From NCBI GenBank assembly GCA_021234155.1, contig JAJEKV010000051.1, forward strand, positions 6,980,761 through 7,044,760: DNA of 64,000 bases, written 5' to 3'. The notes under the pieces were generated by a model. That model was given only the letters and a program-made list of their open reading frames with translations. It had not been told where the DNA came from and ran no database searches. A program made the translations under genes and the position numbers. This document shows positions 339-21,144 of this stretch, one piece after another; positions within the stretch are counted from its first letter, which is position 1, and each line of letters starts with the position of its first letter. The stretch comes from Isoetes taiwanensis (Eukaryota; Streptophyta; Lycopodiopsida; Isoetales; Isoetaceae).

Positions 339-1107
339 ATGACAGACCACACAGCCAACAGCCAACAGAAGAAAGGGGATACGACAAAGACACCAGTGAG
401 CCAGCAAGATTTCAGGGATTTCTTGGCCCAAATGAACAAGCAGCTAGAGACCAGAATCCCAAGCATAGAGGCACTCAATACATTGGCGAAAACAGCCAAC
501 CGCAACAAGATAGCCATATCCAGCATGGATGTCATAATACAAGGGGTCGAGAGGACGAGCGAAAAGATGCAACGGAGGATAGACGAAATCGAGGAAGAAA
601 AAGCCAAGCTCATGCAGAGGTTGGTTGACCTAGAAAAGGTGAATGTTGAGTTAGATGCATGGGAATCTTTTGATAAAATAAAACTGCACATCATGGAATT
701 TGAGGAACAAAATAGGATTAAACATGATGTTAGGCTGATAGGAGTGGCAGAGAAACCTAATGAAGATACATATCGAGTTACTGCAGAGGTACTGGAAATA
801 GTTTTCAAGGAGCATCGAAGCATAATCGCCAAGGCAATACGCTCGGGTCAATGGAGGGGACGAGCAAGACACATAAATCTGACGCTCAGGGATATGGCAG
901 CCAAGGAGCGAATACTGCACATGGGATCCAGATTGAGAAATGGAATCAAGGTGTAGGAAGCACTAACAGTCATGCAGCGGCAGGGGCTGCACAGAGAACT
1001 GGCCAAGGCCATGGAACTGAATCAAGCAGGGATACAAGCAGGAGTCAGGCATGGGAAAGTGTATCTGCACAAGCAGATCAGGGACCAACTAATCCTGGGA
1101 CATAACT
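339..1107 (+). pseudogene. LINE ORF1, L1-type RNA-binding protein
   Basis: Reads from ATG 339 for 205 codons to a TAG at 954-956, then stays open in the same frame to the TAG at about 1107, so one in-frame stop splits it. Residues about 85-130 are a charged heptad stretch (MQRRIDEIEEEKAKLMQRL) typical of the ORF1p coiled coil. After it comes an RRM-like part with the landmarks RLIGVAE, AKAIRSGQWRGRARHINLTL and KERIL, which match the L1 ORF1p (Transposase_22) pattern of an 'I.GVPE' strand followed by a basic 'HR.G...RPR.I...F' strand. The tail after the stop (GKVYLHKQIRD) resembles the C-terminal domain. In the family this protein trimerises, binds the LINE RNA and acts as a nucleic acid chaperone. 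Confidence 0.7.
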
Positions 1108-1379
1108 AGAACGCAGGGAGACTGGAAGCCATAAAACACCCCACCGATGACAACACAGGGGTTGGATGGAGTGGGCCCAGTAGAGATGACTCCGCAAAGG
1201 ACCACAGCCAGTGCAACGTAAGGGAGAAGAGGAAACCGGGGGGGGGAGGAGCATGTACATCGAGACGGGAAAATGGGCCCAGTCTCAACATCAAAAAACA
1301 GGGGACGACCCAGGAGGATAAAATGGGTCAGAACAAATAGATAATCTAAAGGAACAGCCCAGAGGGAAGAGACGCTGAC

Positions 1380-2110
1380 CATTTGGTACTGGAACTGCAT
1401 AGGGTATCCGTGTGATGATGAGGAAAGACTCGAGGAGGCTCATAACTACGACATAATATGCCTGGTGGAAACATGAGAGCACAATGTAAAGAGACTACCG
1501 GAGGAGGAAGGATATAGGTTATTCACGTGCTGGAAAGACAAGGATTTTAAGATAGAAGAGGGAGTGCAGGATTAGCATGCTATGTAAGAGAAAGTATAGC
1601 CAATAGTGTATGTATTTTACATTTGGATATCAATAAAAGATACATGGTACTAGGCATTCAATTGCAAAATAAAAATGGTTAACCCTTATTGTAGCATACT
1701 ACCCACCAAACAGTGACAGACTGGAATCAATGGATCTAGGGGAAAGTATGATGAAATGGAAAGATCAGGGACCTATGATACTGATGGGGGGCCTGAATGC
1801 CAGAACAGGACAGGAACAAGCATAGATCATGAATATGGACGAGAACACAAGCATGGAAAAGAAATACGGAAGACAGGGCAGAAGTCAATGCTAAAGGGGA
1901 ACTATTAATAGAAGTATGTATAGCAACAGGAGTAATTATAGCCAACGGGGCACAGAAGTGGCAAGGATCAGGGGAATTTACGAGCCAGAATGCACACGGG
2001 AAAAGCATAGTCCTATGTATTACTAAATGATCAGGTAGCAGCAGACATCCTAAGTTTTGACATAGCGGAGTGGCCAACTGGAAAGAGGAAGAGTCGCAGA
2101 CCAATACAGC
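1380..2110 (+). pseudogene. LINE ORF2 endonuclease part
   Basis: The N-terminus of an exonuclease-endonuclease-phosphatase domain is readable as WYWNCIGYP and DIICLVET at 1384-1473, directly followed by a TGA (1474-1476) where functional relatives have Trp. A second landmark, MILMGGLNARTG near 1770-1805, corresponds to the GDFNARTG metal-binding motif, with Gly-Leu in place of Asp-Phe. The rest is scattered over frames. In live LINEs this domain nicks target DNA to prime reverse transcription. Here it is inactive because of the stop and the changed motif. Confidence 0.6.
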
Positions 2111-2599
2111 TGACATTGAAGCAGGAAGTACAGACATAGACTGAAAAACATCGTAAAAAGAAGAGCAACGAATTGAAAATACACTTCCAAAATAGACACG
2201 CAGAAACCTTCATACAGAGTGTGGGGAATTGGGCATGGGAGGACCATAAGGCAGATGAGAATGGGGACATGCTCAACGATCTATTGGTGAAAACGGCAAT
2301 AGACATTTTCGGAAGGCGGACAAGGCTCAGAAAGAACCAGGCGTTCAGGGCTTCAGTGTGATATGACGAGGAATGTATGGAACAGAAAAGGAGAGTCAGG
2401 GACCAAAAAGGCACAGATACATATCACCTAGAAAGGGCGACATACCTGAGATTGCTAAAAACAAAAAGAAACAGAAATCTACTGCAACACCAATGGGGGC
2501 TGGCCGAGATGTTAAGAAAACAACCCAGGAGATTTGGGAAAGGACTTAGAAAGAAGGGAGAAGGAAGCAAAAAGTCAGAGAATACATAACAGGGTGCAC

Positions 2600-4095
2600 G
2601 AGGGATCCAATGGGAACAGTACCTTGAGAAACTGTACAAGACAGGGGCAGCACCAATACCAACGCCTATACCCACCCCACATGTGACAAAGGAACCGTGT
2701 TTTAGCATACAGGAGGTGATGATTGCCTTACATAGAATGTCCAACAACAAAGCGCCAGACCTCTATCGACTGACAGTCGAACTACTGAAGTGTGTAGATA
2801 CAGTAATTGAGGAACAGGTAACCGAGATATTTAACAGCGTAATTCATACAGGGTTGCCAGACAGATGGACATACAACAGGGTGATACCTTTACACAAGGG
2901 AGGGAGCAGGAAAGACCCTGGGAACTATAGGACGATAATGGTGAGCTCTATCTTTGCCAAGTGGTTCGGGAAGGTGCTAGACAATAAACTGAAACACTGG
3001 GCAGAAACAGAAAAATTAAGAGCACAAGGGCAAACAGATTTTAGACCACAGCACTCAACTATAGATCATTTGGTAACACTTCAGATCTTAATAGAAGAAT
3101 GCAAAGCTCAGGGAAGGAAGATAATATGCTGCTTTGTAGACTTTAGAAAAGCATTTGATACGGTTCCTCGGGAGAAGTTGTTGCAAAGACTAGTAGATAT
3201 GAGAGCCCTAGATGACATGGTAGGCCCGATAGCGCGATTGTATCAGAGGGTATACGCAAAAATGGAGCAGGACGGACAGACGATAGATTGCAATACATGA
3301 GTTTAACAGGGATGCCCCCTGTCACCGACACTATTTGGTATATACATAGATGCACTGCAGGGGTTCATTACGGAACATCAAGAGGATGCAGATGTTCCAA
3401 CACTAGGGGACACTAAGGTACCCATCGTGCTATATGCAGATGATTTAAGCATGATGGCCACAAAGAGTAAGGGGATGCGCAGGTTACTAGAGCTACTAGA
3501 AGCATTTTGTGAAAAAACAGGGCTAACAGTAAATCTAGCAAAAACCAAAATAGTCACATTTGGCACCAAAAACAGACACGTACCATTCAAATGCATGGGG
3601 ACAGAATTAGAAGAATCAGCAGAATACAGATATTTAGGATATGATGCGCACGGCACAGGCAACTGGGCCAGGGGGGCTGATGCCATATTCCAAGCAGCCA
3701 TTGGGAGCTATTTCAGTATGAAAAATTTCTGTAATAGAAGCAGAATAGTGGACTGGGAGATCAAGTGTTGTCTGTTTAGTACAATAGTTGCAGCAACACA
3801 TCTATATGGATCAAAGACATGGGGGCCCGGACTATCAGACAATAAATGAGACAAGCAAGAAGGGATCTTTAGACAATGGCACAGACAAGAATTTAGAGTA
3901 CGGACAAACACACCTCTAGCAACCATGATATATGAAACAGGTCAGAAACTAATGGAAGTAAGGGCATGGGAGACGACCATCAGATACTTAATGAAAGATA
4001 ATAGGGGCGATCATGCCGAGAAACTGTCAACCATCGCAATAAATGAATCGGCAAAGTCGCATATCATCACAGGCAACGGATGGTTTAGGGCAGTG
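2600..4095 (+). pseudogene. LINE ORF2 reverse transcriptase part
   Basis: A long open piece from about 2683 to a TGA at 3298 contains the non-LTR RT landmarks in order: NNKAPD, NYRTIMVSSIFAKWF, DFRPQHSTIDHL and CCFVDFRKAFDTVPREKL (block with the first catalytic Asp). After a frame break the YADDL catalytic box follows at about 3430, then GLTVNLAKTKIV and YRYLGYD. A last piece around 3925-4095 (MLEVRAWETTIRYL-like) is the C-terminal region past the RT. There is no RNase H. The domain would copy LINE RNA at the nicked target, but it is broken in at least three places. Confidence 0.8.
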
Positions 4096-6138: not shown

Positions 6139-6143
6139 CATGG
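6139..6143. repeat. Target-site duplication CATGG, left copy
   Basis: CATGG lies directly before the 5' LTR of element B. The same five bases follow the 3' LTR at 19022-19026. Across them the family A minus-strand reading resumes, which proves a simple insertion of B into A. Confidence 0.85.
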
Positions 6144-7728
6144 TGTTCCAGCACAGTATACGGCCCCAGGACGTATACTGTACTGCCTCATCACGCGTAC
6201 ATGCCATCCCGACTGACGTGTACGTCGACGTGTAGCCAAGCAAGTAGCGCCCTAGGGGGCAACTTGCAAGGTGTGTGCATTTATTTATGTGCACATTTAC
6301 CCATGTGCACATTTATCCAAGTGTACACACTTACCCATGTGGACACTTTATGCCACCTAGTTAATAAAGGCAAGTGGGCCAATACCCAATTATCCCACAT
6401 GCTTAAAGGGATAATGGGAAACCCTAGCCCTAACCCCTTGTCTATTTAGGTAAAGGAAACCCTAACTTGCTATTTTCGTCCATAGCATTCTAGGTCTCTG
6501 TTTTGCTTGCTCCAGGAGCCAAACCCGCCTCCCAAACTCTGTCTGAGTGATCTAGCTCATCAGTTTCCCCTTCTAGCTTTCTAGCAGTTCAGCAGGATGG
6601 TCGAGTTCAGAGCAGGAGGAGCGAGCCAAGGATCAGGTATTTTGTCAATTTAATAGCCTAAACCGTCTCCCAGGCATTGAATAAGTAGGTTTAGCCTATT
6701 AAATTGCCCATAGCATCCATCTAGATCCCTAGATATCGAGCCCTAACTAAAGAACCTAACTCTGTGATTTAGATTAGATCTTGTTCCTTAGTTCTTCTGT
6801 GATATGTATGATGATGTATCTCTGTGGACTCATTGTATTGGGAAGGGGGGTAGAGACCTTAAAGCCTGGTAGTTGATGCTCCTAGCTAGCCTCTTTAGCA
6901 CACTGTAAATTCGGCATGTGTACAAGAACCACACCTGGTTGTGGATGAAGGGGCCAGACTGGCTCATAAGGAGGTTCATGTCCTGACTCATGATCACGTC
7001 CCTCTGGTAGTAAGGCCTATCGGGGACTATTGTGCACTAGACCTAATGCACTGCCACTGCGTGAGGGCTTGCATGGGTTCGACACTCTTGAGGTGGTGTA
7101 CACCTTCCATGGAGTTCAAGTCGAGTATGGGCAGTGGCCCTCTAGTCACCTTGAGTCAGCATGTAGATCTCTGGTGGGAGTGATCCCTACCTTGCCCCAT
7201 CGGAACTGGGGAGATGCAACCCAGGAGTAGCCCCTTTGGCTATGCATCCGGAGGGCTACAGTCAGGTCCCAACACTTTTCAACCTACTCTGCAAAGTGTG
7301 CACAGGAGGGGCGGATGGAGTGGACTACCCTAAGCTATGTTCTTATGCCAGCCAAATTCATTGCCATGAATTACGTCTACAAAGACCTCTCGAGACCCAA
7401 GCCGCCTGGTCATCCCCTTCGAAGTCCGAGCCTTGGGTAGGATCTCCACATGTGATGTACCGATCTGTCTATGCAGATATGTGATGAGCCATCCTTCGAG
7501 ATGGTTATGTGATGTTGTTGTTGTATATACCGACATGTATGTTTACGCCCAAGAACTAGATAGGCCCCGAGGGAGACAGGGTAAAATGACCCCTTTATTC
7601 TTCCCATGGAACTCATCAAGGTTGCGTTGATACGGAGGGGCCCCAGATCGAAGATGAAGTCGGTATGGGGATGAACTCTGTTTGTATCACGGTGAGTGCA
7701 CCGCATATATGAGTAGGGGACGTCCACA
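6144..7728 (+). repeat. 5' LTR of element B
   Basis: Pairs with 17430-19021 over its full length. It ends in CACA and is followed by the primer site. It shares short blocks with the family A LTR (the run GGGAAGGGGGGTAGAGACC and the stretch around GCACAGGAGGGGCGGATGG), so A and B are sister families. Most differences from the 3' LTR fall in the last 300 bases. Confidence 0.9.
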
Positions 7729-7928
7729 TTAGTGGTATCGAGCTATGTTCTTGGTGACCAAGAGCGAGCACCGACCACCATCCGCCCAAGATACTAACTT
7801 AGTAGGATTCTTAAACCTCGAAAAAGTGGGAAATTTTTTTCTCATTTTTGTAGTATATGCTAAGCTAGTAACAGTTAGGAGAATTGAAAACTAGGAAAAC
7901 TAAAAAGTTGAATAAATTTTGACCAAAA
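7729..7928 (+). other. Element B primer site and leader
   Basis: TGGTATCGAGC at 7733-7743 is a near match to the initiator-Met tRNA primer site TGGTATCAGAGC, which is perfect in family A at 41793. The following bases (CTCGAAAAAGTGGGAAATTTTTTTC) are alignable with the family A leader at 41905-41935, further showing the kinship. There is no reading frame here. Confidence 0.7.
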
Positions 7929-7993
7929 GTCACGGTATACGCCCAGGCCAAAAACCAACTTTTGGTTTTGTTTCCCAGCGCACACCGTGAGAC
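7929..7993 (+). repeat. Hairpin repeat, copy 1 (cassette 1)
   Basis: First of four related imperfect palindromes. The outer arms GTCTCACGGT and ACCGTGAGAC pair, then GCGC pairs with GCGC. An inner arm AAAACCAA pairs with TTGGTTTT around a short loop. This copy is 65 bases with a slightly shorter left arm; the other three are 67. Confidence 0.85.
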
Positions 7994-8136
7994 ATGGCCA
8001 TAATCACCTTGAAACATGATGAATTTTAATAAACTAACATGCTAAACGAGTTTTAAGATAAGAATTAGTCAGATCTGTATGTTATACCCCTAAGAATATG
8101 CCTAGAAATCATATAATTTAGTCAAAAATGCCAAAT

Positions 8137-8203
8137 GTCTCACGGTATGCGCCCAGACCCAAAACCAACTTTTGGTTTTGTATCCCAGCGCACACCGTGA
8201 GAC
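8137..8203 (+). repeat. Hairpin repeat, copy 2 (cassette 1)
   Basis: Same palindrome as at 7929, starting 208 bases later. It lies 157 bases upstream of the cassette 1 TATA box. Both arms are complete, beginning GTCTCACGGTATGCGCCC and ending GCGCACACCGTGAGAC. Confidence 0.85.
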
Positions 8204-8293
8204 CAATGCATTAAAAAAGTCTGAAGTAAGCATATATAATAGGTTAAGTACATCCAAAAGAGTAACTTAGAATTTGACCTAAAATCGCCCCAC

Positions 8294-8403
8294 TATAAAT
8301 AGACCTAGACCTCCCTCATTTGTAACTTTCCTGTTTAGAAATTTGCTCCCGCTTTCCGAGGCAATTTTTGGGCGCCCGACCTCCAATCGACGAGTCGTAA
8401 AAC
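8294..8403 (+). promoter_or_regulatory. Internal promoter of cassette 1
   Basis: TATAAATA at 8294-8301 is a full plant TATA box. TTTGCTCCCG follows at 8342-8351 and an ATG at 8404. Cassette 2 has the same order and similar spacing: TATAAATA 10092, TTTGCTCCCG 10131, ATG 10212. The conserved order in two places supports a real promoter plus 5' leader, although transcription is not shown. Confidence 0.65.
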
Positions 8404-8649
8404 ATGGCGAGAACCAAACAGACTGCTCGAGTTCCTCGAGGAGACGGAACGGCTAGCGTCCAACTTCACCAGATGCTTCTGGAGCGTCTTCTCACGAGAG
8501 AAGACCAGCCTTCATCGAGTGAGGGAACAGTTTCAGAGGAGCACCAAGGGGAAGGATCCCAGCAGGGAGCACAAGACCAAGAGATGGATCAGCCGATAGA
8601 CGAGACGACAGAAGTACTCGAGGAAATAGAGGGCTTAATTACCATTTAA
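8404..8649 (+). CDS. Accessory frame with histone H3 N-terminal tail
   Basis: An 81-residue frame with an ATG placed 110 bases after the TATA box. It begins MARTKQTAR, identical to the start of histone H3 in all eukaryotes, so it carries the equivalents of R2, T3, K4, T6 and R8. The residue at the K9 place is Val. Similarity to H3 then stops: the rest (VPRGDGTASVQLHQMLLERL and on) is a short helical stretch, a Ser/Glu/Gln-rich linker and an acidic C-terminus, with no histone fold. If the initiator Met is removed, as in H3, the exposed end would be ARTKQTAR. I infer a possible decoy or docking peptide for readers or enzymes of the H3 tail. The following frame begins one base after its stop region. 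It is part of a fossil element. Confidence 0.6.
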   Translation: MARTKQTARVPRGDGTASVQLHQMLLERLLTREDQPSSSEGTVSEEHQGEGSQQGAQDQEMDQPIDETTEVLEEIEGLITI

Positions 8650-8650
8650 A

Positions 8651-9145
8651 ATGCGTAAAGTACTCGAGCAGATAGAGAAGGAGAAGCAAGATAAGGCCGA
8701 GCGAGAGCAGGAGGCAAAGGCGGACGAAGAGCAGAGGGAGCCGACTCCCGAGCTGACTCCCGAGCCGACCCCCGAGCCAACCCTGGAGGAAGAACTCGCG
8801 GCCTGGATTCGAAAGCATGAGGTGAAGGAGAGGCGCCGAGAGAAGAAAAGGGCCGAGAAGAAGAGAAAGAGGGAGGAAAAGGAGGCCAAGGAGGCGAAGA
8901 GAAGAAGAAGAAAAAAGGCAAAGCCATGGAGCAGCCCAAGAGAAGAATTAAGAAGACTTCGAAGACGAAGATCGTCATCGAAGAGCGCCCGGCCGACAAA
9001 CCAGCCTCGTTGGATGACTCGGATGATGAAGACTTCAACCCTAACTTTGAAGGTGGGAGTTCTTCCAAGCCCCCAGGTGATGAGCAAGGAGATCAGGAGC
9101 AGCCCTAGCAGGTGCAGATGCCCCCCCCTACCCGACTTGGGATAG
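8651..9145 (+). CDS. Accessory frame, highly charged, NLS-like
   Basis: About 164 residues, almost entirely Lys, Arg, Glu and Ala in the first two thirds. It starts with a charged coiled coil (EQIEKEKQDKAEREQEAKAD), then a TPEL-TPEP-TPEP repeat, a further helix, and long basic runs (KKRAEKKRKREEKEAKEAKRRRRKKAK split over several heptads) that look like a nuclear localisation signal. An overlapping frame at 8926-9108 is acidic (DDSDDEDFNPNFEGG). No known domain. The composition fits a nuclear, nucleic-acid or histone-binding protein, but low-complexity charge alone cannot define function. Confidence 0.45.
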   Translation: MRKVLEQIEKEKQDKAEREQEAKADEEQREPTPELTPEPTPEPTLEEELAAWIRKHEVKERRREKKRAEKKRKREEKEAKEAKRRRRKKAKPWSSPREELRRLRRRRSSSKSARPTNQPRWMTRMMKTSTLTLKVGVLPSPQVMSKEIRSSPSRCRCPPLPDLG

Positions 9146-9629
9146 GAAGAAACTGCCACGGCCTGCCCGGGAATCTTATGTGATAGACCCTATCAGGGTC
9201 TACCAGAAGAAGCTGAAGGAGTACAATGCATGAAGAAGTGGGAGGCTTACAACTCCTACTATCAGGAGAACAAGGTAACTTTTGTAACAGGTGGACGGCC
9301 ATCGAAGAAGCAGACGCTCAAGCCGCCGCCAGAGAAGCCTGCTGATGGCACTACAGGAAGCAACCGAGCAGAAGCTGGTGCAGCACTTTGAAGACTCAAC
9401 AGCCTGCACTGTACATGCAAAGAGGGTAACTTTAATGAAGAAGGACATGCAACTCGCTAGTTACATTAAGGGAGAACCCCAGTAATCTTGTAAATGACAA
9501 AATTTTGACTAATACAAACTGTTTTGTTGTAAGTTATATGTGCACAAGTGATGTTAATTAGGTTGAATTAGCAACAATTGCACTTTGTTTTAGTAAATTT
9601 GGACATTTGTAGGCCAAGTTGTGCCCAAT
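9146..9629 (+). other. End of cassette 1 and spacer
   Basis: Holds short frames (for example a Lys/Pro-rich stretch near 9290-9340) that look like the decayed end of the cassette 1 coding region, then an AT-rich stretch from about 9485 with TTTTGTTGTAAG and TAATTAGG words that could hold a plant poly-A region. No clear AATAAA is seen. Confidence 0.4.
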
Positions 9630-9696
9630 GTCTCACGGTATGTGTCCAGACCAAAAACCAACTTTTGGTTTTGCCTCCTGGCGCACACCGTGAGAC
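9630..9696 (+). repeat. Hairpin repeat, copy 3 (cassette 2)
   Basis: Same 67-base palindrome, beginning GTCTCACGGTATGTGTCC and ending GCGCACACCGTGAGAC. It opens the second cassette. Confidence 0.85.
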
Positions 9697-9832
9697 CTTC
9701 ATGCCCAAACTAGTCCAAAACGTCTCCAAATCGGCCAAGTAAGGGGTCAATCTTGAATATCTCGATGGGATTATCATGTTTTGACCCTTAGTTCACCTTG
9801 ATTGGATAAGTCTAGATCAATTTAGGGCCAAT

Positions 9833-9899
9833 GTCTCACGGTATGCGCCCAGACCAAAAACCAAACTTTGGTTTTGCTTCCTAGCGCACACCATGAGAC
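9833..9899 (+). repeat. Hairpin repeat, copy 4 (cassette 2)
   Basis: Same palindrome 203 bases after copy 3, nearly the same spacing as between copies 1 and 2 (208). The right arm has one change (ACCATGAGAC). It ends about 190 bases before the cassette 2 TATA box. Confidence 0.85.
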
Positions 9900-10091
9900 C
9901 TTCTAGCAATTTCTCCAACATGCCATACCCAATTGACCTCTAGTTTGTTGCAATAGGTTCATTAGATTGTCCTAGTCATGGTCAAACCCTCAAATTAGCC
10001 TTCCAATCCCCATTTGGACCTCAAGATAGGTCAGATTTGCCCAACCCCAAGAGTTTTCCAAGTCACCCAAAATTAGGGTTTTTCTCTTGTC

Positions 10092-10211
10092 TATAAATAG
10101 GACCCCATTTCTCACTTAGCATCCTAGAAGTTTGCTCCCGACCTTCTAGGCGATCTTCCACTCCCCGAGGCGCTTTTGCATCTGTTTGTTAGTCCAATCT
10201 CCTCTAGATCC
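10092..10211 (+). promoter_or_regulatory. Internal promoter of cassette 2
   Basis: TATAAATA at 10092-10099 inside CTATAAATAGG, then GAAGTTTGCTCCCG at 10127-10140 and a second shared motif YTTCYNAGGC just after it, as in cassette 1 (8352-8362). The ATG follows 120 bases after the TATA box. The downstream AATAAA at 11869 completes what looks like a self-contained transcription unit. Confidence 0.65.
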
Positions 10212-10454
10212 ATGGCAACTGCTGACTTTAGGCGATGGTACAGCGCCAGTGCCCATGCAGCTGAGACCGATGTCAATGCCATTTTCCAAGTTTTCCGGAA
10301 ACAGATAGATGTCCAAGCCACTCTGCAAGCAACCCCGGCCTACATGGAAGTCATGACCGAGTTCCAAGCTAGGGTAGGACCGTCCTTAGTACAGCTCCCC
10401 CCTTGTACATGCTATTTTGTTCCCAGGTCATCCCTCCAGGCAGCCTTTGGGTGA
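10212..10454 (+). CDS. Accessory frame at the head of cassette 2
   Basis: About 80 residues from the first ATG after the promoter with a Kozak-like ATCCATGGC context. It begins MATADFRRWYSASAHAAETD and is helical and mildly charged (VFRKQIDVQATL, AYMEVMTEFQ). No domain recognised. It overlaps the start of the larger frame that follows, so the two may belong to one ancestral gene, but no joining is attempted here. Confidence 0.4.
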   Translation: MATADFRRWYSASAHAAETDVNAIFQVFRKQIDVQATLQATPAYMEVMTEFQARVGPSLVQLPPCTCYFVPRSSLQAAFG

Positions 10455-10497
10455 TGTTCCCTATCTGACCAACAAGGCTCAGAGGTTGCCAGACTAC

Positions 10498-11730
10498 ATG
10501 GTCTTGACCGTTGATAGAACCAAGTATTTCTCCTACACCGCCGCCCTAGCAATCTTTCTTTCCCACCGTGCCCAGAACCCCATTGGGGAGACCTCTATTC
10601 CTCCCATGGATGTAGACCCCTTAGCCTCCTCAGCAGAAGGTCAGCTCTTTTTGCAGTACCAACAGGAGCAAGAAGGAAGAGCCGAAGGCGAGGAATCGGA
10701 TGACGAGGACTACGTCGAGCTCGACCCAGAAGAAGAGCGGCAGCTAGTAGAGCAGGAGTTACGGGACTTTGAACGAGACCGGCAGACCCTCAGGATCGCT
10801 CCCCCGCTTGGGCTAGGTATCACAAGCCTAGCCCCCATCATCATCGACGGCCAGGAGTACCTGCTCCTCAGTGACATCCAGAACCTCCCCGAATGCAGGG
10901 AAAGGGAGTACCGACTTGACGAGTTGCTGCATCTTCTGCGGCAACAACCAGATCTGGATGATTTCATCGTCCGGGAAGCTTCCGACTTCCCGATTCAGGT
11001 AAGGGAAGCCGACACCTACACCGGAGAGTCGACTTCAGACATCCAAGCCTACAACAGCATCCGGCAGATGATGGAAGCTCGGGACCTGCCAGCTGAAGAA
11101 GAGTTCTACGCCATCCAAGAACGGATAGGGATCCGTGGCAAGACCACAGACATTTTGATGCCGAGTTCGTCGACACCAGATTCCCCAGAGAGAAGAGGCG
11201 AGATCGACCTCAGGCGAATCACTTCAACAATAAGAGACTATGGGGAGATGACAGAGATTGACGTCGACGAATACGCAGGAAGACATAGAGCTGGTGGCCG
11301 ACCTGACGACGAATCAACAGCAGCAGGCAGGGACAGATCACTGAGGTACTACCTTCCACTACCGATGGACGGAAGAATAGCGGTCATACACCGCAAGTTC
11401 AGCCCAAGGGGCGAAGAAGGAGTGTTCATGCTCATCGCACTCTCCGGCTTTGGTAGGCATGCTCGACTGCTCCCAACGGTCGACCACGTCATCCTAGTCA
11501 AGAGAACGATGGCACTTGACCTCTTCGACTTCGCCATACCCTACCGACGACAGGGAAGACTAGCAGTGACCGCGGCCTACACTTCCGACCGCAGGGTAGA
11601 AGACTTGGTGCAAGCCTTGCAGGGCGGGACATCAACCAACATCCTCATGAACTTGGGACGCTCAGTAGGAACGGCCCAAGTTAAGAAGTTTCTTCAGGAT
11701 AACCCATCCTACCGGCGATTTCAAGAATAG
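10498..11730 (+). CDS. Accessory acidic protein of about 410 residues, unknown
   Basis: The longest unbroken frame of the element. I place the start at ATG 10498 (MVLTVDRTKYFSYTAALAIF); the frame is open further upstream to 10417 but without an ATG. Features in order: a folded-looking N-terminus, a very acidic segment (EGEESDDEDYVELDPEEE), a Glu/Arg-rich helix (LVEQELRDFERDRQTL), a hydrophobic beta-rich block (IIIDGQEYLLLSDIQNLPE), a helix-rich part, a Ser/Pro linker, and a C-terminal block (GVFMLIALSGFGRHARLLPTV) ending FLQDNPSYRRFQE. No membrane span, zinc finger, protease or RT motif. I do not recognise the family. That 410 codons stay open in an otherwise broken element suggests recent constraint or recent capture. 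Confidence 0.55.
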   Translation: MVLTVDRTKYFSYTAALAIFLSHRAQNPIGETSIPPMDVDPLASSAEGQLFLQYQQEQEGRAEGEESDDEDYVELDPEEERQLVEQELRDFERDRQTLRIAPPLGLGITSLAPIIIDGQEYLLLSDIQNLPECREREYRLDELLHLLRQQPDLDDFIVREASDFPIQVREADTYTGESTSDIQAYNSIRQMMEARDLPAEEEFYAIQERIGIRGKTTDILMPSSSTPDSPERRGEIDLRRITSTIRDYGEMTEIDVDEYAGRHRAGGRPDDESTAAGRDRSLRYYLPLPMDGRIAVIHRKFSPRGEEGVFMLIALSGFGRHARLLPTVDHVILVKRTMALDLFDFAIPYRRQGRLAVTAAYTSDRRVEDLVQALQGGTSTNILMNLGRSVGTAQVKKFLQDNPSYRRFQE

Positions 11731-11900
11731 TTAGACTCTTGATCCCGGAGGCATTGTATTTAAGATATTATACATATATAAATATAATTTCTTTTGCACT
11801 GTAAATGTTTTTGTTGATGTATCTTGTTCCACAACTATACCAACAAACACATATAATGCAATAGAACAAATAAAGCTAATCATAAGGCCATGATCTACTT
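11731..11900 (+). terminator. Probable poly-A region of cassette 2
   Basis: After the stop at 11728-11730 the sequence turns AT-rich with TATATAAATATAA and TTTTTGTTGATGTATCTTG (far-upstream-like) words, then AATAAA at 11869-11874. This order fits a plant polyadenylation region. Confidence 0.45.
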
Positions 11901-13130
11901 GTATATGCAGCTAGAGGTCCAGGCACAGCTGAACAAGAACGGCGAGCCCGTAGGGATGAACAGACTCCGCCCAGGCCGCACCCAGTAAGGAACTTATACG
12001 AGGAATTCGGCCCCATGACCCCTGAAGAAGAGATATCACAGATGAGAACAGACCTCGATCAGATAAAGGCCTTCTTGGCAATACAAGCAGGTGTTGGTCC
12101 AGATGGCAACGCCCAGTTGCCGCAAGCACCAGCCCGAAAGGCGGGAAAGAATAAGAGGAAGAGCAAGAGAATGAGGTCCCCCAGCACGGAATCCTCCGAC
12201 TCAAGCTCGGATTCAGACTATGATTCTGAGGAAGAGGCGTAAGTGTGCAGGACCGTAGGGATAGCAGACCCAAAGACACGAGGGCCCCTGATCATCGTAA
12301 GAAGGTAGATTCAAATACCTGGTAATGTATGGAAGGCCGAAAAGCTTGAGCAATTCTCAGCGACATGCCAGATTAGGCATGGAAGCAGAGGCTTGGCTAG
12401 ATGAGATTAGTGAGTATGGCAACGCTTATAGCATGAAGGACAAGGACAAAGGCAGACAACAGCTAACCTCAAGGGAGCAGCACGCATTTGGTGGAAGGGC
12501 TATGCCAAGGCCCATGGGTTGAACAGGGACAGTTGCAAGTTTAAGAAGTTTGCTAAGGCTTTCAAGCGCCATTATGTACCCACGGGAACATAAGTGTCAC
12601 ATGATGCAAAGTTTCAATCGATTGCAAAGAGGGCAACATGTCCAGACAAGAAGTACAAAATGGCTCAGGTTGTATGTGCCAAAATTGAGCGAATGCCACG
12701 CAGTAGAAGGGTACATCGAGGACTGAATGAGGAGATAAGGAAGCTGGTAAGGGCAATCAACCCTGACAAAGGTCGAGGCGTAATCCAAGGCAAATAAGCT
12801 TGCAAGGGGACGGGGGCCTCAAGAGAAAGTGGGCGAAACAGCAACACTTGTCATGATAAGGGCAAGGCAACAGAAGCTATAGCCCTAGAGCAAGCTAGCC
12901 CTGTGTCCAAAATAAGGCTCCATATAGCGGAAATTATGGGAAGCATCAAGAGAAGAAGCAGGTGTCCTTCAAGGACAAGCAAGAGGCGTCAAACTACTCC
13001 AAAGCAGAGGCGGTCCTTTTGCAAGCAATGCCCAAGGAGAAGAGGCAGGAGTGCATAGAGAAACAGCTTTGTTTCGGGTGCTTCCACCGGGCCACGTAAC
13101 ATCAAACCGCCCCCTTCATGAGTTCAAAGA
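11900..13130 (+). mobile_element. Element B gag region
   Basis: Pieces of a gag polyprotein. There is an N-terminal part with a helical segment (EEEISQMRTDLDQIKAFLAIQ), a basic run (KAGKNKRKSKRMR) and a Ser/Asp/Glu tail. Next is a retrotransposon gag core with EAEAWLDEI, then GLNEEIRKLVRAINP, and finally a zinc-knuckle-like LCFGCFHR near 13070. The same landmarks are seen in family A (GLNNNIKRLVRAINP, LCFRCFQPGHRTHNCP). Gag would form the virus-like particle. Broken. Confidence 0.65.
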
Positions 13131-13189
13131 TTAGCGGAGTTGGGTGGATGGGACACTGCCCCGACAACGACGGCCGGCGAGCCAAAGAC

Positions 13190-13700
13190 GCGACTTCATT
13201 CAGGGTGAGCGTCACATTTTTGCTGCCATAGATACAGAACAAGCAGAGAATCAGTATCAAGTAATCTCCACAATAGAGAAGGCCAAGGCCAAGTCATTCA
13301 TAATCCTGATAGACTCGGGAAGTAGCCACAACTTTGCATCCCCAAGAATGGTTGAGATGTTGAAGCTGAAACCGTTGAAGTCAAAGCCGAGACCCGTGGT
13401 GCTAGCAAACGGGGGAGTAAGGCACACGGCCGGCAAAAGGATAAAGTTCGACATTGATTTGCTGGGAATCAACATCCAGATGGGGGCAGAAGTAATGAAT
13501 ATTGGGAAGTATTATTTAATCATCGGAATGGAGTACCTTGATCCAGCAGGAGCCCTCATTGATTGTGGAAAGCAGAAGGTGACCCTCACAGCACCCAACG
13601 GCAAGATCATAGAGATCACAGGTAAAGAAGTTGTCCCAATCATGCAGTGTATGTCTAATAAGCGGCTGCTCAAGTGCATAAAGAGCGAGCAGGTAGCATA
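13190..13700 (+). mobile_element. Element B protease
   Basis: A retropepsin with the active-site box IDSGSSHNFASP near 13310-13345, followed by KSKPRPVVLANGG, FDIDLLGINIQMGAEVMNIGKYYLIIGMEYL and VPIMQCMS. This acts as an aspartic protease that cleaves the Gag-Pol polyprotein. The Asp-Ser-Gly triad is present. Confidence 0.8.
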
Positions 13701-13759
13701 TATCTTCAAGCTTGAGATCGAAGAGTCCGAGTCAGAAGAAAGCAAGGAAGATAAAGTGC

Positions 13760-15120
13760 TCAGCAAGTTGCCCAAGCAAATAGCTAAGTTGATCAAGGAG
13801 TTCCACGATCTCTTCCCAGATGAGATCGAGCATCTTCCTCCTTACAGGGGAGTCGAGTGTGAGATAGCACTCGAACCAGGTACGAAGCCGACAAGCAAGG
13901 CTCCATATGGAATGACGACGCAGGAAGGAGTTGCTCGACCTAGGCTTCATTAGACCTAGCGTCTCACCATTTGGGGCACCCATTCTTTTTGTGAAGAAGA
14001 AGGATGGCAGCTTGAGGATGTGCATAGATTACAGGCAGTTGAACAAGCACACCATCAAAAATAAGTATGCGCTCCCCAGATCGGATGACTTGATGGATCA
14101 GCTCCAAGGGGCAAAAGTCTTCTCCAAAATTGACCTAAGATCGGGCTATCATCAGATAAGGATCAAGGAAGAAGACATCCACAAAACCGCCTTCAGAACG
14201 CGGTATGGGCACTATGAGTTCACGGTAATGCCTTTCGGCTTATCGAACGCCCCAGCAACGTTCATGAGGCTCATGAACGACATCTTCAGGGAGTTCTTAG
14301 ATACTTTTGTGATAGTATTCTTTGACGATATTCTGGTGTATAGCAGATCCTTGGAAGAACACGTACAACACCTAAGGAGAGTGCTCGAGAAGTTAAGGAG
14401 GCACCAGTTGTACGCCAATTTGTCGAAGTGCCACTTCGCAACGGAGAAGGTGGAATACCTATGTCATATGATCTCAGCAGAAGGAATTTCGACGGATCCC
14501 GCCAAGATTAAAGCAGTCATACAGTGGCCGGCACCAAAGAATGTCCATGAGGTCAAAAGCTTTCTTGGCCTAGCAGGGTATTACAGGAAGTTTGTGAAGA
14601 ACTTTGCAACGATAGCGGCCCCGCTAACGGACTTGATGAGGGCGGAAAAAGTGAAAGATTGGACAGATCATTGGCACAAGAAAGCCCAAGCAGGGTTTGA
14701 ATTGTTGAAGGAAGCTTTGACAACCACCCCCGTCCTGACCCTGCCAGACCCAGAGAAGGACAAGCTTGTGGCGACAGACGCAAGTAAGATTGCCACAGGT
14801 GCAGTGCTCATGCAGGAAGAGCGGGTGGTAACTTACGATTCTAGGAAGATGAACGACGCCGAAACACGCTACCCGACGCACGATCAAGAATTGCTTGCAG
14901 TTTGTCAGGGCGCTAAGAATTTGGAGGCACTACCTGTTGGGGAGGAAGTTCCAGTTAGACACGGATCATCAAAGTCTCCAATATGTGTTCACGCAACCAC
15001 ATCTCAACCTGAGGCAGCGAAGGTGGATGGAGTTCCTCGAAGAATATGACTTTGATATAGTCTATAAGCCGGGGGAGCTGAATGTGGTAGCAGATGCGCT
15101 TTCAAGGCATCCTTTGACAA
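13760..15120 (+). mobile_element. Element B reverse transcriptase and RNase H
   Basis: The RT starts in the linker PPYRGVECEIALEPG, continues with the fingers motif [25 protein letters not shown], then [25 protein letters not shown] and the catalytic FFDDILVYS near 14310. The connection has [12 protein letters not shown]. RNase H follows with [14 protein letters not shown] and [11 protein letters not shown], then HPLTTR after the [10 protein letters not shown] box. All are standard Ty3/gypsy landmarks with about the expected spacing. Confidence 0.85.
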
Positions 15121-15299
15121 CAAGAGTACACTGCAATGCAATTTCGACGCTCACCAGCGACTTTGGTAAGAAGATCGAAGAAACCTTGCCGACAGATGCA
15201 GACTTCAAGGAAGTGTGGGCGAGCTTGTGCAAGGAGGCAAGAACTAAAAAGGAGAGGGAGACCTTCAAGAATTTTAAGAAGGAAGATAACCTTTTGTAT

Positions 15300-16300
15300 C
15301 ATAAGAACAAGTTGTGTGTGCCGGAATCATCAGGGGTGAGGAAGTTGATTCTACACGACACCCACAACAGTCCAATAGCTGGCCACGCAGGATTTATGAA
15401 GACATATTTCAAAGTGCGCAACAGCTATTATTGGCCAGGAATGAAGAAGCAGGTGGCTCGCTACATCAAAGAGTGTCAGCTGTGTCAGCAGACGAAGGCA
15501 GAGCAGCTTTGAATTCTAGGAGCATTGGAACCTTTAGCGGTGCCGAACGCTAAGTGGGAGGTCATCAGCATGGACTTCATAACAGGGCTCCCGAGGACAG
15601 TAAGAGGGAAAGATGCCTTGATGGTTGTGGTCGACAAGTTGTCGAAGATGGCACACTTTATGCCTTATAGGACCACCGACACAGCTATGGATACAACGAA
15701 GCTCTTCACCAAGGAAATCTTCAGGCTCCATGGCATGCCAAGGGAGATCATCTCCGACAACCCGAAGTTCATGAGTGCCTTTTGGCAAGACCTCTTTGCG
15801 ACGATTCAGACGAAGCTGTCCATGAGCACGGCCTATCATCCCCAGACGGATGTGCAAACAGAGCAGACCAACAGGATTTTGGAGGATATGCTACGAAACT
15901 ATGTTTGGAACAAGCAGAGTATGTGGGAAGAGTATATTCACTTGGTGGAGTTTGCGTATAATAGCACCAAGCAGGAATCATCCCAAATGTCGCCGTTTAT
16001 GATCAACTACGGCTACCAATGTCTAACTCCAGACACTTGGCACAATCCTGTGTCAAAAGTAGAGGTTTCGCAGCAAATGTTGGCCGACATGCAGCAGCTG
16101 GTAGAAGAGGTCCGAGGATATCTTCTTGCAGCAAGGAGTCGACAAAAGAGCGTCGCTGACAAGCATCGGACGATCAGAGAGTTCCAAGTTGGCGACAACG
16201 TTTGGCTCAAGATCAAAGTGAAGCAGGCAAAGCTCCGCATCGGAAATTGTAAGAAGCTTGCTCCAAGGGAGGTAACCAATCCTACAAGTTAGAGTTGCCA
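15300..16300 (+). mobile_element. Element B integrase
   Basis: The HHCC zinc domain reads [18 protein letters not shown] and CQLCQQTKA near 15355-15500. The catalytic core has [48 protein letters not shown] and an EQTNRILEDMLR block with the Glu of the DDE triad. After it comes the C-terminal beta domain VGDNVWLKIKV. Inserts the cDNA into the genome in live elements. Here it is part of a broken pol. Confidence 0.85.
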
Positions 16301-16309
16301 GCACACCTA

Positions 16310-16525
16310 AAGATTCATAAAGTCTTCCACGTGAGTTTACTGAAGAAGCATACTCCCAAGCCAGACGAAGTCTTGGACACTCCAACGCTGTTGGAAATGA
16401 CAGAAGAGCAGCTGGAGATAGTTCCAGAATTGATTCTTGATAAAGCCTTTAAGAAAACAAGGAGATCAGAGTTTCTCCAATATTTGGTCAAGTGGAAACA
16501 CTTGCCGGTGGAAGACGCGACATAG
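16310..16525 (+). mobile_element. Element B chromodomain
   Basis: Follows the integrase: KVFHVSLLKKHTPKPDEVLD, then KTRRSEFLQYLVKWKHLPVEDAT with the aromatic cage positions Tyr and Trp. It aligns with the family A chromodomain at 5843-6138. Combined with the H3-tail frame at 8404, the same element holds both a candidate histone-tail reader and a candidate histone-tail mimic. Confidence 0.8.
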
Positions 16526-17429
16526 GTACTTAAGAAGGATCTAAATTTAGATTAATTCATGTGTAGTTAAGATTAATCTACGCATGCAACCTATGCTAGA
16601 TATGGGTTGCATGCATTGTTACCGATGATGGGACCACTACGGTGATCTCTAGGATGTGGTGTAATGTCATTGTAGGCATGACCGCAGTTTTGCTTGGATA
16701 GTAGATTAAAGTCTACTTCCGTCCCACGGAAGTAGATGACCTCGAGATATAAGAGGCCATTCAGGCATGCATTGATAGGAAAGCACCTCTAGTCAATGCC
16801 TACGGGGAGGACCCTATCCTTCACGCCCCAAATACGGGAAGGACCCTATCCTCCACGCTTGGGCAACTAAAGGTGTAGGCATGAGCGTCATACAGGTATT
16901 ATAGGGCGCTGTCTCCACGGCCACGATGGAAGAAGCATCCTCTTCCTACGCCGGGAGATTAATCATGCATCCATGTAGATAGATGGGGTGGTCCCCTTAT
17001 AACCATAATTTTATTAATAATTAAAATGGTACTAATGTAGTGTCGACCTGCAGGCCAATAGAGCGCTCCGGAGGGCAAGGAGGTCGAGCTACAAAGACTT
17101 GCAACACAAATTTTGTTGGAATGTGTTGCAAGGAATGAAGAGTACCTCGAAGCATAATTGTATATGAAACTGTTAAATTTTGATAAATTAAAATGTGTGA
17201 TAAGTGAAACTAATAAGTACCTTGTTTTAATGAAGTTACGAATTGATAAGTTATTTGATAATGTAATGACGTAATAATGTTTTAAAAATATTACTTTAAG
17301 GTAATCCTAATAATTGTGTAAGTATAATAGTAATATATATGCATGCATCAAGTTGATTGCAGGTTAGGAAATTCCCAAGGTGGGGAGACCCACGATGCTG
17401 CGGACAGCATCATTTCAAGGTGGGGAGAA
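16526..17429 (+). other. Element B 3' non-coding tail and polypurine tract
   Basis: No frame of note. It contains two strong hairpins: GCATGCAACC / GGTTGCATGC (16582-16591 with 16605-16614), and TCTACTTCCGT / ACGGAAGTAGA (16712-16722 with 16726-16736, loop CCC). A direct repeat of GGACCCTATCCT with a CACG follow-up occurs at about 16810 and 16850. The stretch 16550-17040 has no homology in family A and may be a small insertion. AT-rich sequence follows, and AAGGTGGGGAGA occurs twice near 17379 and 17418; the second directly precedes the LTR as the polypurine tract. Confidence 0.6.
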
Positions 17430-19021
17430 TGTGACGTTCCAGCACAGTATACGGTCCCAGGACGTATACTGTACTGCCTCGTCACGCGTACACGCCATCC
17501 CGACTGACGTGTATGCCGATGTGTAGCCAAGCAAGTAGCGCCCTAGGGGGCAACTTGCAAGGTGTGTGCATTTATTTATGTGCACATTTACCCATGTGCA
17601 CATTTATCCAAGTGTACACACTTACCCATGTGGACACTTTATGCCACCTAGTTAATAAAGGCAAGTGGGCCATACCCAATTATCCCACATGCTTAAAGGG
17701 ATAATGGGAAACCCTAGCCCTAACCCCTTGTCTATTTAGGTAAAGGAAACCCTAACTTGCTATTTTCGTCCATAGCATTCGAGGTCTCTGTTTTGCTTGC
17801 TCCAGGAGCCAAACCCGCCTCCCAAACTCTGTCTGAGTGATCTAGCTCATCAGTTTTCCCTTCTAGCTTCATCTTCTAGCAGTTCAGCAGGATGGTCGAG
17901 TTCAGAGCAGGAGGAGCGAGCCAAGGATCAGGTATTTTGTCTATTTAATAGCCTAAACCGTCTCCCAGGCATTGAATAAGTAGGTTTAGCCTATTAAATT
18001 GCCCATAGCAGCCATCTAGATCCCTAGATATCGAGCCCTAACTAAAGAACCTAACTCTGTGATTTAGATTAGATCTTGTTCCTTAGTTCTTCTGTGATGT
18101 GTATGACGATGTATCTCTGTGGACTCATTGTATTGGGAAGGGGGGTAGAGACCTTAAAGCCTGGTAGTTGATGCTCCTAGCTAGCCTCTTTAGCACACTG
18201 TAAATTCGGCCTGTGTACAAGAACCACACCTGGTTGTGGGTGAAGGGGCCAGATTGGCTCATAAGGAGGTTCATGTCCTGACTCATGATCACGTCCCTCT
18301 GGTAGTAAGGCCTATCGGGGACTATTTTGCACTAGACCTAATGCACTGCCACTGCGTGAGGGCTTTGCATGGGTTCGATACTCTTGGGGCGGTGTACACC
18401 TTCCATGGAGTTCAAATCGAGTATGGACAGTGGCCCTCTAGTCACATTGAGTCAGCATGTAGATCTCTGGTGGGAGTGATCCCTACCTGCCCCATCGGAA
18501 CTGGGGAGATGCAACCCAGGAGTAGCCCCTTTGGCTATGCATCCGGAGGGCTACAGTCAGGTCCCAACACTTTTCAACCTACTCTGCAAAGTGTGCACAG
18601 GAGGGGCGGATGGAGTGGACTACCCTAAGCTATGTTCTTATGCCAGCCAAATTCATTGCCATGAATTCTGTCTGCAAAGACCTCTGGAGACCCAAGCCGT
18701 CGGTCATCCCCTTCGAGTCTGAGCCTTGGGTAGGATCTCCACATGTGATGTATTGATCTCTTTCTATGCAGATATGTGATGAGCCATCCTTCGAAATGGT
18801 TATGTGATGTTGTTATTGTATACTGACATGTATGTTTACGCTTCCGCAGCTAGGTAGGCCCTGAGGGAGACAGGGTAAAATGACCATTTCATTCTTCCCA
18901 CTGGAACTCATCAAGGTTGCAGTGATACGTGGAGGGCCCTGTATCAGTATGGAGCTGGTATGGGGGATGAACTCCTGTTTGTATACGGTGAGTGCACCGT
19001 ATATGAGTAGGGGACGTCACA
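17430..19021 (+). repeat. 3' LTR of element B
   Basis: Starts TGTGACGTTCCAGC and ends GGGGACGTCACA, so it has TG...CA ends with an extended 7-base inverted end (TGTGACG / CGTCACA). Matches 6144-7728 throughout. Followed by the CATGG duplication at 19022-19026. Confidence 0.9.
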
Positions 19022-19026
19022 CATGG
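19022..19026. repeat. Target-site duplication CATGG, right copy
   Basis: Second copy of the five bases at 6139-6143. The family A reading resumes immediately after it. Confidence 0.85.
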
Positions 19027-21144
19027 AAGACCTTATAGACTTTGAGGTGCGCCGGAAGATCTAGCTTGTAGGCCTGGGTGCCCACTCACTCCAAAATCTT
19101 AAAAGGACCTGCCCACCTGGGAGCAAGCTTTTTGCAATTCCCTATTCGAAGCTTGGCTTGCTTCACCTTAATCTTCAACCACACACTGTTGCCTACCTTG
19201 AACTCCCTTATGGTCCTGTGCCTGTCGGCCTTACTCTTTTGCCGACTTCTTGCTGCTAATAAATATCCCCTTACCTCTTCAACCAGCTGCTGCATATCTG
19301 ATAGCATTTGCTGGAAGACTTCTACCTTTGACACTGGGTTGTGCCATGTATCAAAGGTCAGGCACTGGTATCTATAATTAATCGTGAAAGGAGACATCTG
19401 GGATGACTCCTGCTTCGTATTGTTGTAGGCGAACTCTACTAAGTGGATTAAATCATTCCACTTAGACTGTTTGTTCCAAACATAACTTCTTAGCATATCT
19501 TCAATAATTCGATTCGTTCGCTCCGTCTGACCGTCTGTCTGCGGGTGATATGCTGTGCTCATGGAGAGCTTTGTCTGGATGGTGCTAAACAGATCCTGCC
19601 AGAATGCACTCATAAACTTATAATCTCTATCCGAGATAATCTCATGAGGCATGCCATGGAGTCTAAAAATCTCCCTTGCAAATAGGACGGCAGTGTCTAG
19701 TGTCGTGTCTATGGTTCTACACGGCACAAAGTGTGCCACCTTGGACAACTTGTCCACAACCACCATCAAAGCATCCTTGCCTCTTACAGTTCTTGGGAGT
19801 CCTGTGATGAAGTCCATACTTATGACTTCCCATTTTGCATTCGGCACGACTAATGGCTGTAAGGCTCCTGGGATTCAGAGTTGCTCCGCTTTGGTCTGCT
19901 GACATAGCTGACACTCCCAAATGTATTGGGCTATCTGTTTCTTCATGCCTGGCTAGAAGTAGCTACTTCTTATCTTGAAATATGTCTTCATGAACCCTGC
20001 ATGGCCGGTTATGGGACTGTTGTGTGTATCGTGAAGTATTAGCTTCCTTACTCCCGATGATCCAGGTACACACAACTTGTTCTTATGGTATAGGAGACTA
20101 CCTTCCTTTTTATAATGCTTGAAGGTCTCCCTTTCCTTATCTGTTCTTGCCTCTTTAGAGAGGCTAGCCCACACTTCCTTAAAGTCGCCATCTGATGGCA
20201 ACGTTTCTTCAATCCTCTTGCCATACTTACTTGAGAGGGTCAATATGGCATTGTAATGTGTTCTGGTCTCGAATGGTCTCCTGGAGAGTGCATCTGCAAC
20301 TACATTCAACTTACCAGGCTTATAGACTATTTCGAAGTCGTACTCCTCGAGAAACTCCATCCACCTCCTTTGTCGTAGATTGAGGAGTGGTTGCGTAAAG
20401 ATATACTGGAGACTTTGGTGAGCTGTATCTAATTGAAATTTTCTTCCCAATAAATAGTGTCTCCAGATTCTTAGGGCCCTCACAATAGCCAGAAGCTCTT
20501 GGTCGTGAGTCGGGTAGCATTGCTCCGTGTCGTTCATCTTCTTGGAGTCGTATGCGACTACCCTTCCTTCTTGCATGAGGACTGCTCCCGTTGCTAGCTT
20601 GCTAGCATCTGTCGCCACTAGCTTATCCTTGTTTGGATCCGGTAGGATGAGGACCGGTGCTGTGGTTAGTGCCTCTTTGAGCTTCTCAAAGGAAGCTTGG
20701 ACATTCTCAAGCCAATGCTTTGTCCAATCCTTCACCTTCTTATCCTTGGTGAGGTCCGACAAAGGGGACGCCCACTTAACGAAGTCCTTCACGAACTTTC
20801 GATAATATCCTGCCAAGCCGAGGAAGCTTCTTACTTCGCCCACATTCCTTGGTGCCGACTAATCCACTATGGCTTCTATCTTTGCTGGATCAGTGGAGAT
20901 CCCTTCAAATGACACCACATGACCCAAATACTCCACTCGACCTGTTGCGAAGTGGCACTTGGAAAGCTTGCCATACAATCGATGCCGCCTTAGCTTCTCC
21001 AAAACTCTTCTCAAGTGCTGACAATGTTCTTCCATGGTCTTGCTGTAGACTAGGATGTCGTCGAAGAATACGATGACAAATTCATCTAAGAATTCGCGGA
21101 AGATATCATTCATTAGGTGCATGAAGGTTGCCGGGGCGTTGGAT
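19027..21144 (-). mobile_element. Family A pol: integrase, RNase H, part of RT
   Basis: Minus-strand continuation of the A element cut by B. Reading from high to low coordinates: RT landmarks [13 protein letters not shown] and [15 protein letters not shown], connection [12 protein letters not shown], RNase [15 protein letters not shown] and [10 protein letters not shown], zinc domain [15 protein letters not shown], and integrase core [28 protein letters not shown], then KLAPRWAGPFKILE. At about 21145 the RT is cut by a family C piece. Only a few interruptions are seen in this stretch, fewer than in B. Confidence 0.85.

Follow-up and report, generated by a model that had tools for sequence, protein, structure and literature searches.

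A broken histone H3-type gene with an exact A1-R8 tail in a Ty3/gypsy chromovirus of Isoetes taiwanensis

We analysed a stretch of 64,000 nucleotides from Isoetes taiwanensis (hereafter the window) and found that a short frame opening with the first residues of histone H3 is the front part of a broken H3-type gene, carried by a Ty3/gypsy chromovirus and complete in some of its relatives elsewhere in the genome. Judging from the sequences compared here, the retrotransposon probably encodes an H3 variant of which this is the tail; the variant would be made apart from Gag-Pol, be nucleosomal and help to keep the element expressible instead of silenced.

The H3-type gene and its carrier element

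Reading from position 8404 on the plus strand, the codons ATG GCG AGA ACC AAA CAG ACT GCT CGA GTT give MARTKQTAR and then V. Translation hence confirmed the ATG, the nine H3 residues and the Val in the place of K9 that the preliminary description had reported. The frame opened by this ATG encodes 81 aa and ends with the stop codon at 8647-8649. The window copy keeps A1-R8 only, the whole H3 tail to residue ∼40 (with K9, K14, K18, K23, K27 and K36) being absent. A TATA box (TATAAATAG), likewise described beforehand, is indeed present at 8294-8302, 110 bases upstream of the ATG. When the window was searched with a degenerate tail pattern at ≤3 mismatches, 8404 was the sole place found, against a mean of 0.02 expected from shuffles.

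The earlier claim that no histone fold follows turned out to be wrong, as a different frame of this broken gene encodes H3 alpha2-alpha3 at 9342-9476. Stop-to-stop segments beyond 8649 run on in other frames to 9482. The segment 9342-9476 matched the Pfam Histone family with 47.5 bits (cut-off 26.4; E 2.7e-12) and H3 chains in the PDB (best E 1.8e-14), and tblastn with H3 placed residues 89-133 there at 62% identity (E 6e-15). Because of these three matches we regard the tail and the fold end as the two ends of one gene that is broken here. The tblastn match begins at H3 residue 89, and alphaN-alpha1 was not recognised in the window copy. We rejected a stand-alone 81-aa gene: the 246-base frame is a truncated piece of a ∼1.1-kb gene (8404-9485 in the window copy). 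With its frameshifts and damaged fold, the window copy is dead.

In relatives, the whole gene consists of the tail, a linker of ∼330 residues and a gapless H3 fold. Locus L006 has a single open frame of 428 aa from the tail through the end of the fold, and L018 has a complete H3 fold that aligns with H3.3 across 87 residues without gaps (E 1.8e-22). For both the window segment and L018 the best PDB sequence matches are H3, to which the fold is thus closest. The alignments show R49, R69, R83, H113, R116, T118, D123, L126 and I130 of H3 to be kept, residues that we take to serve DNA contact and H3-H3' contact. R63 and R128/R129 are altered in the fold of the window lineage, so the nucleosome may be less stable. 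ARKS or ARKT strings were absent from the 13 window-lineage frames of >200 aa that we examined, most of which end before the fold.

The carrier is a complete Ty3/gypsy chromovirus (6144-19023), with the H3 gene between primer site and gag. Its features in the window are as follows:

6139-6143 and 19024-19028 (no strand): target-site duplication CATGG, from sequence
6144-7728 (+): 5' LTR (TGTTCC...CGTCCACA), 95.0% identical to 17436-19024 over 1,599 columns
7733-7743 (+): primer binding site TGGTATCGAGC, from sequence
7896-8207 (+): two ∼100-base repeats with palindromic ends (7896-7997 and 8106-8207), upstream of the H3 gene
8294-8302 (+): TATA box TATAAATAG of the H3 gene, a motif also upstream in other copies
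8404-8649 (+): reported frame, H3 tail MARTKQTAR and start of the linker, stop-terminated in the window copy
8404-8430 (+): codons of the H3 tail (Met and A1-R8), by pattern match and constraint analysis
8639-9388 (+): remainder of the linker in three alternating frames, broken in the window copy (open segments 8639-9142, 8821-9105, 9084-9230 and 9146-9388)
9342-9476 (+): H3 histone-fold segment alpha2-alpha3 (Pfam, PDB, tblastn), with the frame stop at 9483-9485
9599-9700 and 9802-9903: the same ∼100-base repeats, before ORF-B
10092-10100 (+): second TATA box (TATAAATAG), upstream of ORF-B
10212-11730 (+): ORF-B in the pieces 10212-10454 and 10390-11730, with a relative in the sister lineage
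11886-13131 (+): gag remnants, including a Retrotrans_gag-like piece at 12432-12590 (20.5 bits, under the cut-off of 24.1)
13135-13950 (+): aspartic protease (RVP_2, 1.3e-8)
13916-15046 (+): reverse transcriptase and RNase H, by frames and family matches
14853-16289 (+): end of RNase H and integrase (Pfam covers 15027-15509 only)
16253-16522 (+): integrase C-terminus with chromodomain (Chromo, 25.7 bits, cut-off 25.1)
17430-19023 (+): 3' LTR (TGTGACGT...ACGTCACA), with a polypurine stretch directly before it

The Pfam matches follow the order protease, reverse transcriptase, RNase H and integrase in interrupted frames, and the chromodomain belongs to the same element as the H3 tail, as previously stated. 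The primer binding site resembles the initiator-Met primer site. Between primer site and gag there are two gene-like units, each behind a pair of ∼100-base repeats and a TATAAATAG box. All four repeats end palindromically (TCTCACGGT ... ACCGTGAGA) and precede the two TATA units (7896-8207 and 9599-9903); direct repeats occupy like places in L066, and a regulatory function of the repeats is possible. For the longer piece of ORF-B there was no match in Pfam or the PDB, and Rfam at gathering scores gave nothing in the window. The minus strand of 19000-48600 holds another gypsy element in nested and tandem arrays, whose long units are mostly 96-98% alike and in which tblastn with H3 found no fold. 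Judged by eye, 339-3849 is a decayed LINE-like element with reverse-transcriptase-like frames.

Copies and amino-acid constraint across the genome

Throughout the 1.66-Gb genome the tail pattern gave 904 + 984 = 1,888 exact matches and its reversal none; since the pattern admits Ser for either Arg besides every coding of MARTKQTAR, 1,888 is an upper count of exact tails. The 81-aa query returned 942 first-look candidates, a loose number and not a count of proven genes, and all 150 that were scored reached E 3.4e-9 or better. An exact MARTKQTAR start was seen in 22 of 30 loci chosen for N-terminal likeness. The H3 gene, ORF-B, gag and protease follow each other in that order in all four ten-kb loci inspected (L065-L068, containing L015, L005, L006 and L018), one of which, L068, has a small inverted piece at gag. 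We also took eight loci with different tail codings from the first 100 listed places, chosen by tail coding alone. All eight have the MARTKQTAR start and seven have remains of the H3 fold downstream (best E per locus 1e-46 to 8e-6); the eighth, L094, gave no fold match and, by eye, reads on into gag- and protease-like sequence.

Residue 9 is K in seven of these eight tails, followed by P in five, F in one and a stop in one, but never by S; the remaining tail (L089) has I. In the sample drawn without regard to the tail (see below), Lys 9 is kept in 2 of 12 tails. We therefore rejected K9 loss as a general feature. As seven of the eight other-coding tails have K, Val at this position marks some subfamilies, that of the window included.

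For this tail-blind sample we took every fifth of the first 100 fold matches and fetched 401 bases at the expected distance (20 loci). The tail was found in 12 of the 20, the other eight being without one inside the 401-base stretch. Eight of the 12 tails are exact, three have one substitution (L072, L074 and L079) and one is disrupted (L075); two of the loci overlap the first set (L083 = L003, L087 = L014). With L075 left out, pN/pS, here a simple pairwise count over related copies without significance test and, in the tail, over few sites, was 0.11 for codons 2-9 (pS 0.563, pN 0.061) and 0.76 for codons 10-14 (pS 0.396, pN 0.301). In the N-terminally selected set (28 of the 30 loci, without L015 and L018), the corresponding ratios were 0.10 and 0.46, with 0.48 for codons 15-36. 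The eight exact tail-blind copies use eight different codings, that is, the tail is conserved as protein. The N-terminus is thus kept while its codons drift, so that the refuting outcome named in the preliminary description was not seen, and neutral drift of the tail is rejected by pN/pS in both sets. For the fold of the window lineage the ratio was 0.19 in 14 copies, and 0.13 in the 9 of 30 copies with an unbroken fold. Overall, there appears to be amino-acid constraint on A1-R8 and on the fold, and little just after R8.

The TATA box lies 109-115 bases before the ATG in all 11 of 11 tail-blind copies. The motif was also found 88-122 bases before the ATG in 28 of the 30 N-terminally selected copies, compared with only 2 of 30 in the next 1,300 bases upstream.

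A sister lineage and the affinity of the folds

Using canonical H3 as query, we scored 150 of 9,022 first-look candidates (a similarly loose number): 15 near-canonical H3 rows have 96-98% identity, and the other 135 have 71-86%. This search led to a sister lineage (L046-L064) without the H3 tail. In the corresponding place, its members have a frame of ∼410 aa, in which the first 310 residues (MAITKS...) precede an H3 fold; four copies were compared, and their folds share 87-90% identity with host H3. None of 8,000 scored candidate proteins matched this N-terminus at E ≤ 1. Homology of the N-terminal domain to ORF-B was rejected (hhalign gave a probability of 0.4% with the window's ORF-B and of 0.2% with the lineage's own). 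The sister ORF-B itself is related to that of the window (hhalign 95%, E 3.8e-8), and it is followed by gag and protease in three of four ten-kb loci (L061, L063 and L064), with none seen in L062. In the same three loci an additional frame, to which no family was assigned, separates ORF-B from gag and lies ∼0.7-1.2 kb before the latter (AEETLWEYEERITDM... in L061 and L063).

Upstream of the sister genes, we saw no TATA box within 300 bases of the start in eight of nine distinct copies (or 11 of 12 rows, as three copies appear in two rows each). Frames of at least 400 aa are open in 51 of the 135 sister rows listed, two of them with a stop inside the match, and ARKS-like strings occur in some members (L063). 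The pN/pS of the sister fold, 0.03 in 15 copies, is biased because the copies were chosen for H3 likeness; host H3 rows gave 0.04.

The fold trees place the sister lineage within canonical H3 (95/91 and 99/97). The window lineage stands beside plant CENH3 with 84/87 and 92/85, values below the starred level and with both branches fast; the 92/85 tree was built after dropping P0058, P0118, P0039, P0012 and human CENP-A. The CENH3 references were Arabidopsis and rice sequences and P0102, which came from the protein search. A grouping of the window lineage with canonical H3 was not rejected (p-AU 0.268), nor was a clade uniting both lineages (p-AU 0.058 and, in the reduced tree, 0.135). CENH3 has a longer loop 1, with a Trp in plants. 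The window-lineage fold aligns gaplessly with H3, and its alpha1-alpha2 loop has the H3 length and is without Trp.

Possible roles and known parallels

Retrotransposon silencing works partly by histone-tail modification. We propose that an ancestral Ty3/gypsy chromovirus of this genome took up an H3-type gene, comprising the tail and a fold whose grouping with plant CENH3 is weak. Placed after the primer site and before gag, the captured gene would have come to adjoin ORF-B and, in the window lineage, to stand behind its own TATA box. A long charged linker (∼330 residues) would have replaced the rest of the H3 tail. Made apart from Gag-Pol, the element histone would lose its Met, pair with H4 and enter nucleosomes, perhaps on element-rich chromatin. 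Its ARTKQTAR end could there be bound or K4-methylated like that of H3 and would be open to K4-side readers and writers, whereas K9 and K27 would lack their ARKS surroundings; together this would tilt the element towards expression rather than silencing. As none of the 13 frames contained ARKS or ARKT, this lineage apparently lacks the customary surroundings of K9 and K27, which makes a gain in expressibility plausible.

The K9-keeping subfamilies and the ARKS-like strings in some sister copies speak against a simple K9 story: since seven of eight other-coding tails keep Lys 9, escape from silencing through its loss cannot be general. Weighing against the proposal as well are the dead window copy, the altered R63 and R128/R129, and the sister lineage, which is without an H3 tail and mostly without a TATA box in the 300 bases upstream. 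Of the bias towards K4-side partners suggested in the preliminary description, one half stands, in that constraint falls right after R8 and fits partners that read A1-R8; the other half, which relied on the loss of K9, does not hold generally.

A broader reading seems possible to us rather than probable, namely that a large class of this genome's retrotransposons supplies nucleosomal histones of its own. These would mark the chromatin of the elements as "self", readable through ARTKQTAR and, in the window lineage, without the ARKS silencing sites, and would steer new copies there. The window lineage would then use its own promoter to make a CENH3-like H3 that has the A1-R8 tail, and in the sister lineage a foreign N-terminal domain would precede a near-canonical H3.

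The main rival to a histone that favours expression is a targeting device, which we consider rather unlikely. Here, a CENH3-like element histone would mark or find places of integration; it might, for instance, become part of nucleosomes at centromeres or in element-rich regions, which the integrase chromodomain or Gag-bound cDNA would then meet. The position of the window lineage beside plant CENH3 (84/87, 92/85), the presence of the integrase chromodomain and the nested and tandem gypsy elements at 19-48 kb of the window are in line with such a device. However, the CENH3 grouping is below the starred level with two fast branches and competes with a canonical-H3 grouping at p-AU 0.268. The best 60 PDB sequence matches listed for the L018 fold are moreover all named H3 and none CENP-A, the alpha1-alpha2 loop has the length of H3 and not the longer CENH3 form, and the listed copies are scattered over many contigs.

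That the histone gene is a passenger, caught from the host by chance and copied along without use to the element, is disfavoured and in our view quite improbable. The window copy and many others are broken, and a fungal hAT element contains H3-like genes without known use, both of which would suit a passenger. Yet tail and fold are constrained at the amino-acid level at the same time as synonymous sites diverge, the H3 module keeps its place beside ORF-B in two diverged lineages, 51 of the 135 listed sister rows have open frames of at least 400 aa (two with a stop inside the match), and the TATA box is conserved.

Very unlikely, finally, is the interpretation originally offered, a free mimic of the H3 tail: a small peptide acting as decoy or docking site for proteins that read or write H3K4, with no histone function. 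The drop in constraint directly after R8 and the stop after 81 residues in the window would be expected of such a peptide, but the fold is encoded downstream in the window copy, is complete elsewhere and leaves remains in seven of the eight loci chosen solely by tail coding; relatives have the tail as the start of an H3-type histone. A chance match of nine residues, considered very unlikely from the outset, is refuted by the 0.02 occurrences expected in the window at ≤3 mismatches, the 1,888 genomic matches against 0 in the control and the fact that the same gene encodes an H3 fold.

Influenza NS1 and other short histone mimics have an H3-tail-like sequence without a histone fold. The element protein resembles them in a sequence able to engage binders of the H3 tail, and differs in that its tail is at the true N-terminus of an H3-type histone. 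CENH3 combines an ARTK-type start with a long non-H3 linker. With plant CENH3 the window lineage shares these two traits, a LIPxAPF-like alpha1 and a neighbouring position in the fold trees (84/87, 92/85); it is unlike plant CENH3 in being element-borne and in its exact ARTKQTAR, without the loop insertion or the Trp in the loop. We know of no LTR element that carries a histone gene, and a literature search found no description of one, although it covered open-licence papers only and is weak evidence.

Among precedents, a fungal hAT element comes closest. In Pyrenophora tritici-repentis, H3-like (H3L) genes are reported inside a hAT DNA transposon, with 26 very similar copies in the reference genome, insertions in the tail, a fold that fully matches neither H3 nor CenH3, and transcripts (PMC3538342). 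Both cases concern a mobile element with an H3-like gene in many copies; in contrast to the hAT element (PMC3538342), a DNA transposon with terminal inverted repeats, the carrier here is an LTR retrotransposon, with at least two diverged lineages, 1,888 tail-pattern matches, an exact A1-R8 and constraint over a large synonymous divergence. Viral histones offer a second parallel. A bracovirus H4 is reported to join host nucleosomes and to alter expression through its tail (PMC5423620), and giant viruses encode histones (PMC9145170). As here, the core histone and the N-terminal tail peculiar to it come from a selfish genome, but the carriers are DNA viruses (PMC5423620, PMC9145170). The main text of the giant-virus histone review contains neither 'retrotranspos' nor 'retrovir' (PMC9145170).

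Additional genes are known from plant LTR retrotransposons, which are described as having additional antisense ORFs in the 3' region, the extra gene of Grande having its own promoter (PMC7264820). An orchid Ty3/gypsy lineage with its own AlkB demethylase is named in another paper (PMC12786077). Like the chromovirus, Grande and the AlkB elements are Ty3/gypsy elements with an extra gene potentially acting on host regulation; unlike it, their extras are antisense ORFs or a demethylase and no histone (PMC7264820, PMC12786077). The word 'histone' is absent from the main texts of PMC7264820 and PMC5408684.

If the retrotransposon does encode a nucleosomal H3 variant, an LTR retrotransposon that brings its own constrained H3-type histone, in very many copies, would represent a direct counter-move to silencing at the level of the nucleosome. 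It would also amount to a natural experiment on the H3 tail, in which A1-R8 would be indispensable and the remainder dispensable. This raises the questions of how the host's own chromatin is kept ordered when its genome contains so many H3-type reading frames and whether the element histone contributes to centromeres. Under the broader reading, these would be retroelements that carry their own epigenome.

Beyond this genome, the 81-aa frame had no candidate relative among proteins of ∼45-142 aa. The X-joined pieces of the gene matched 190 proteins at E ≤ 1, and all 120 of those listed carry Pfam PF00125; in six of these 120 the match starts ahead of query residue 300, three of them having the H3 tail and three extending into the fold. 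Among viral contigs and genome contigs (the latter searched with the sister-lineage query only), just two loci were found. The first, L097 on an IMG/VR contig, has histone-like domains in neighbouring frames and looks like a viral histone fusion, presumably resembling the fused histones of giant viruses. The second, L098 (JAIYDP010000008.1), is an H3 gene, seemingly interrupted by an intron, from a bin labelled Verrucomicrobiaceae; it is probably eukaryotic contamination.
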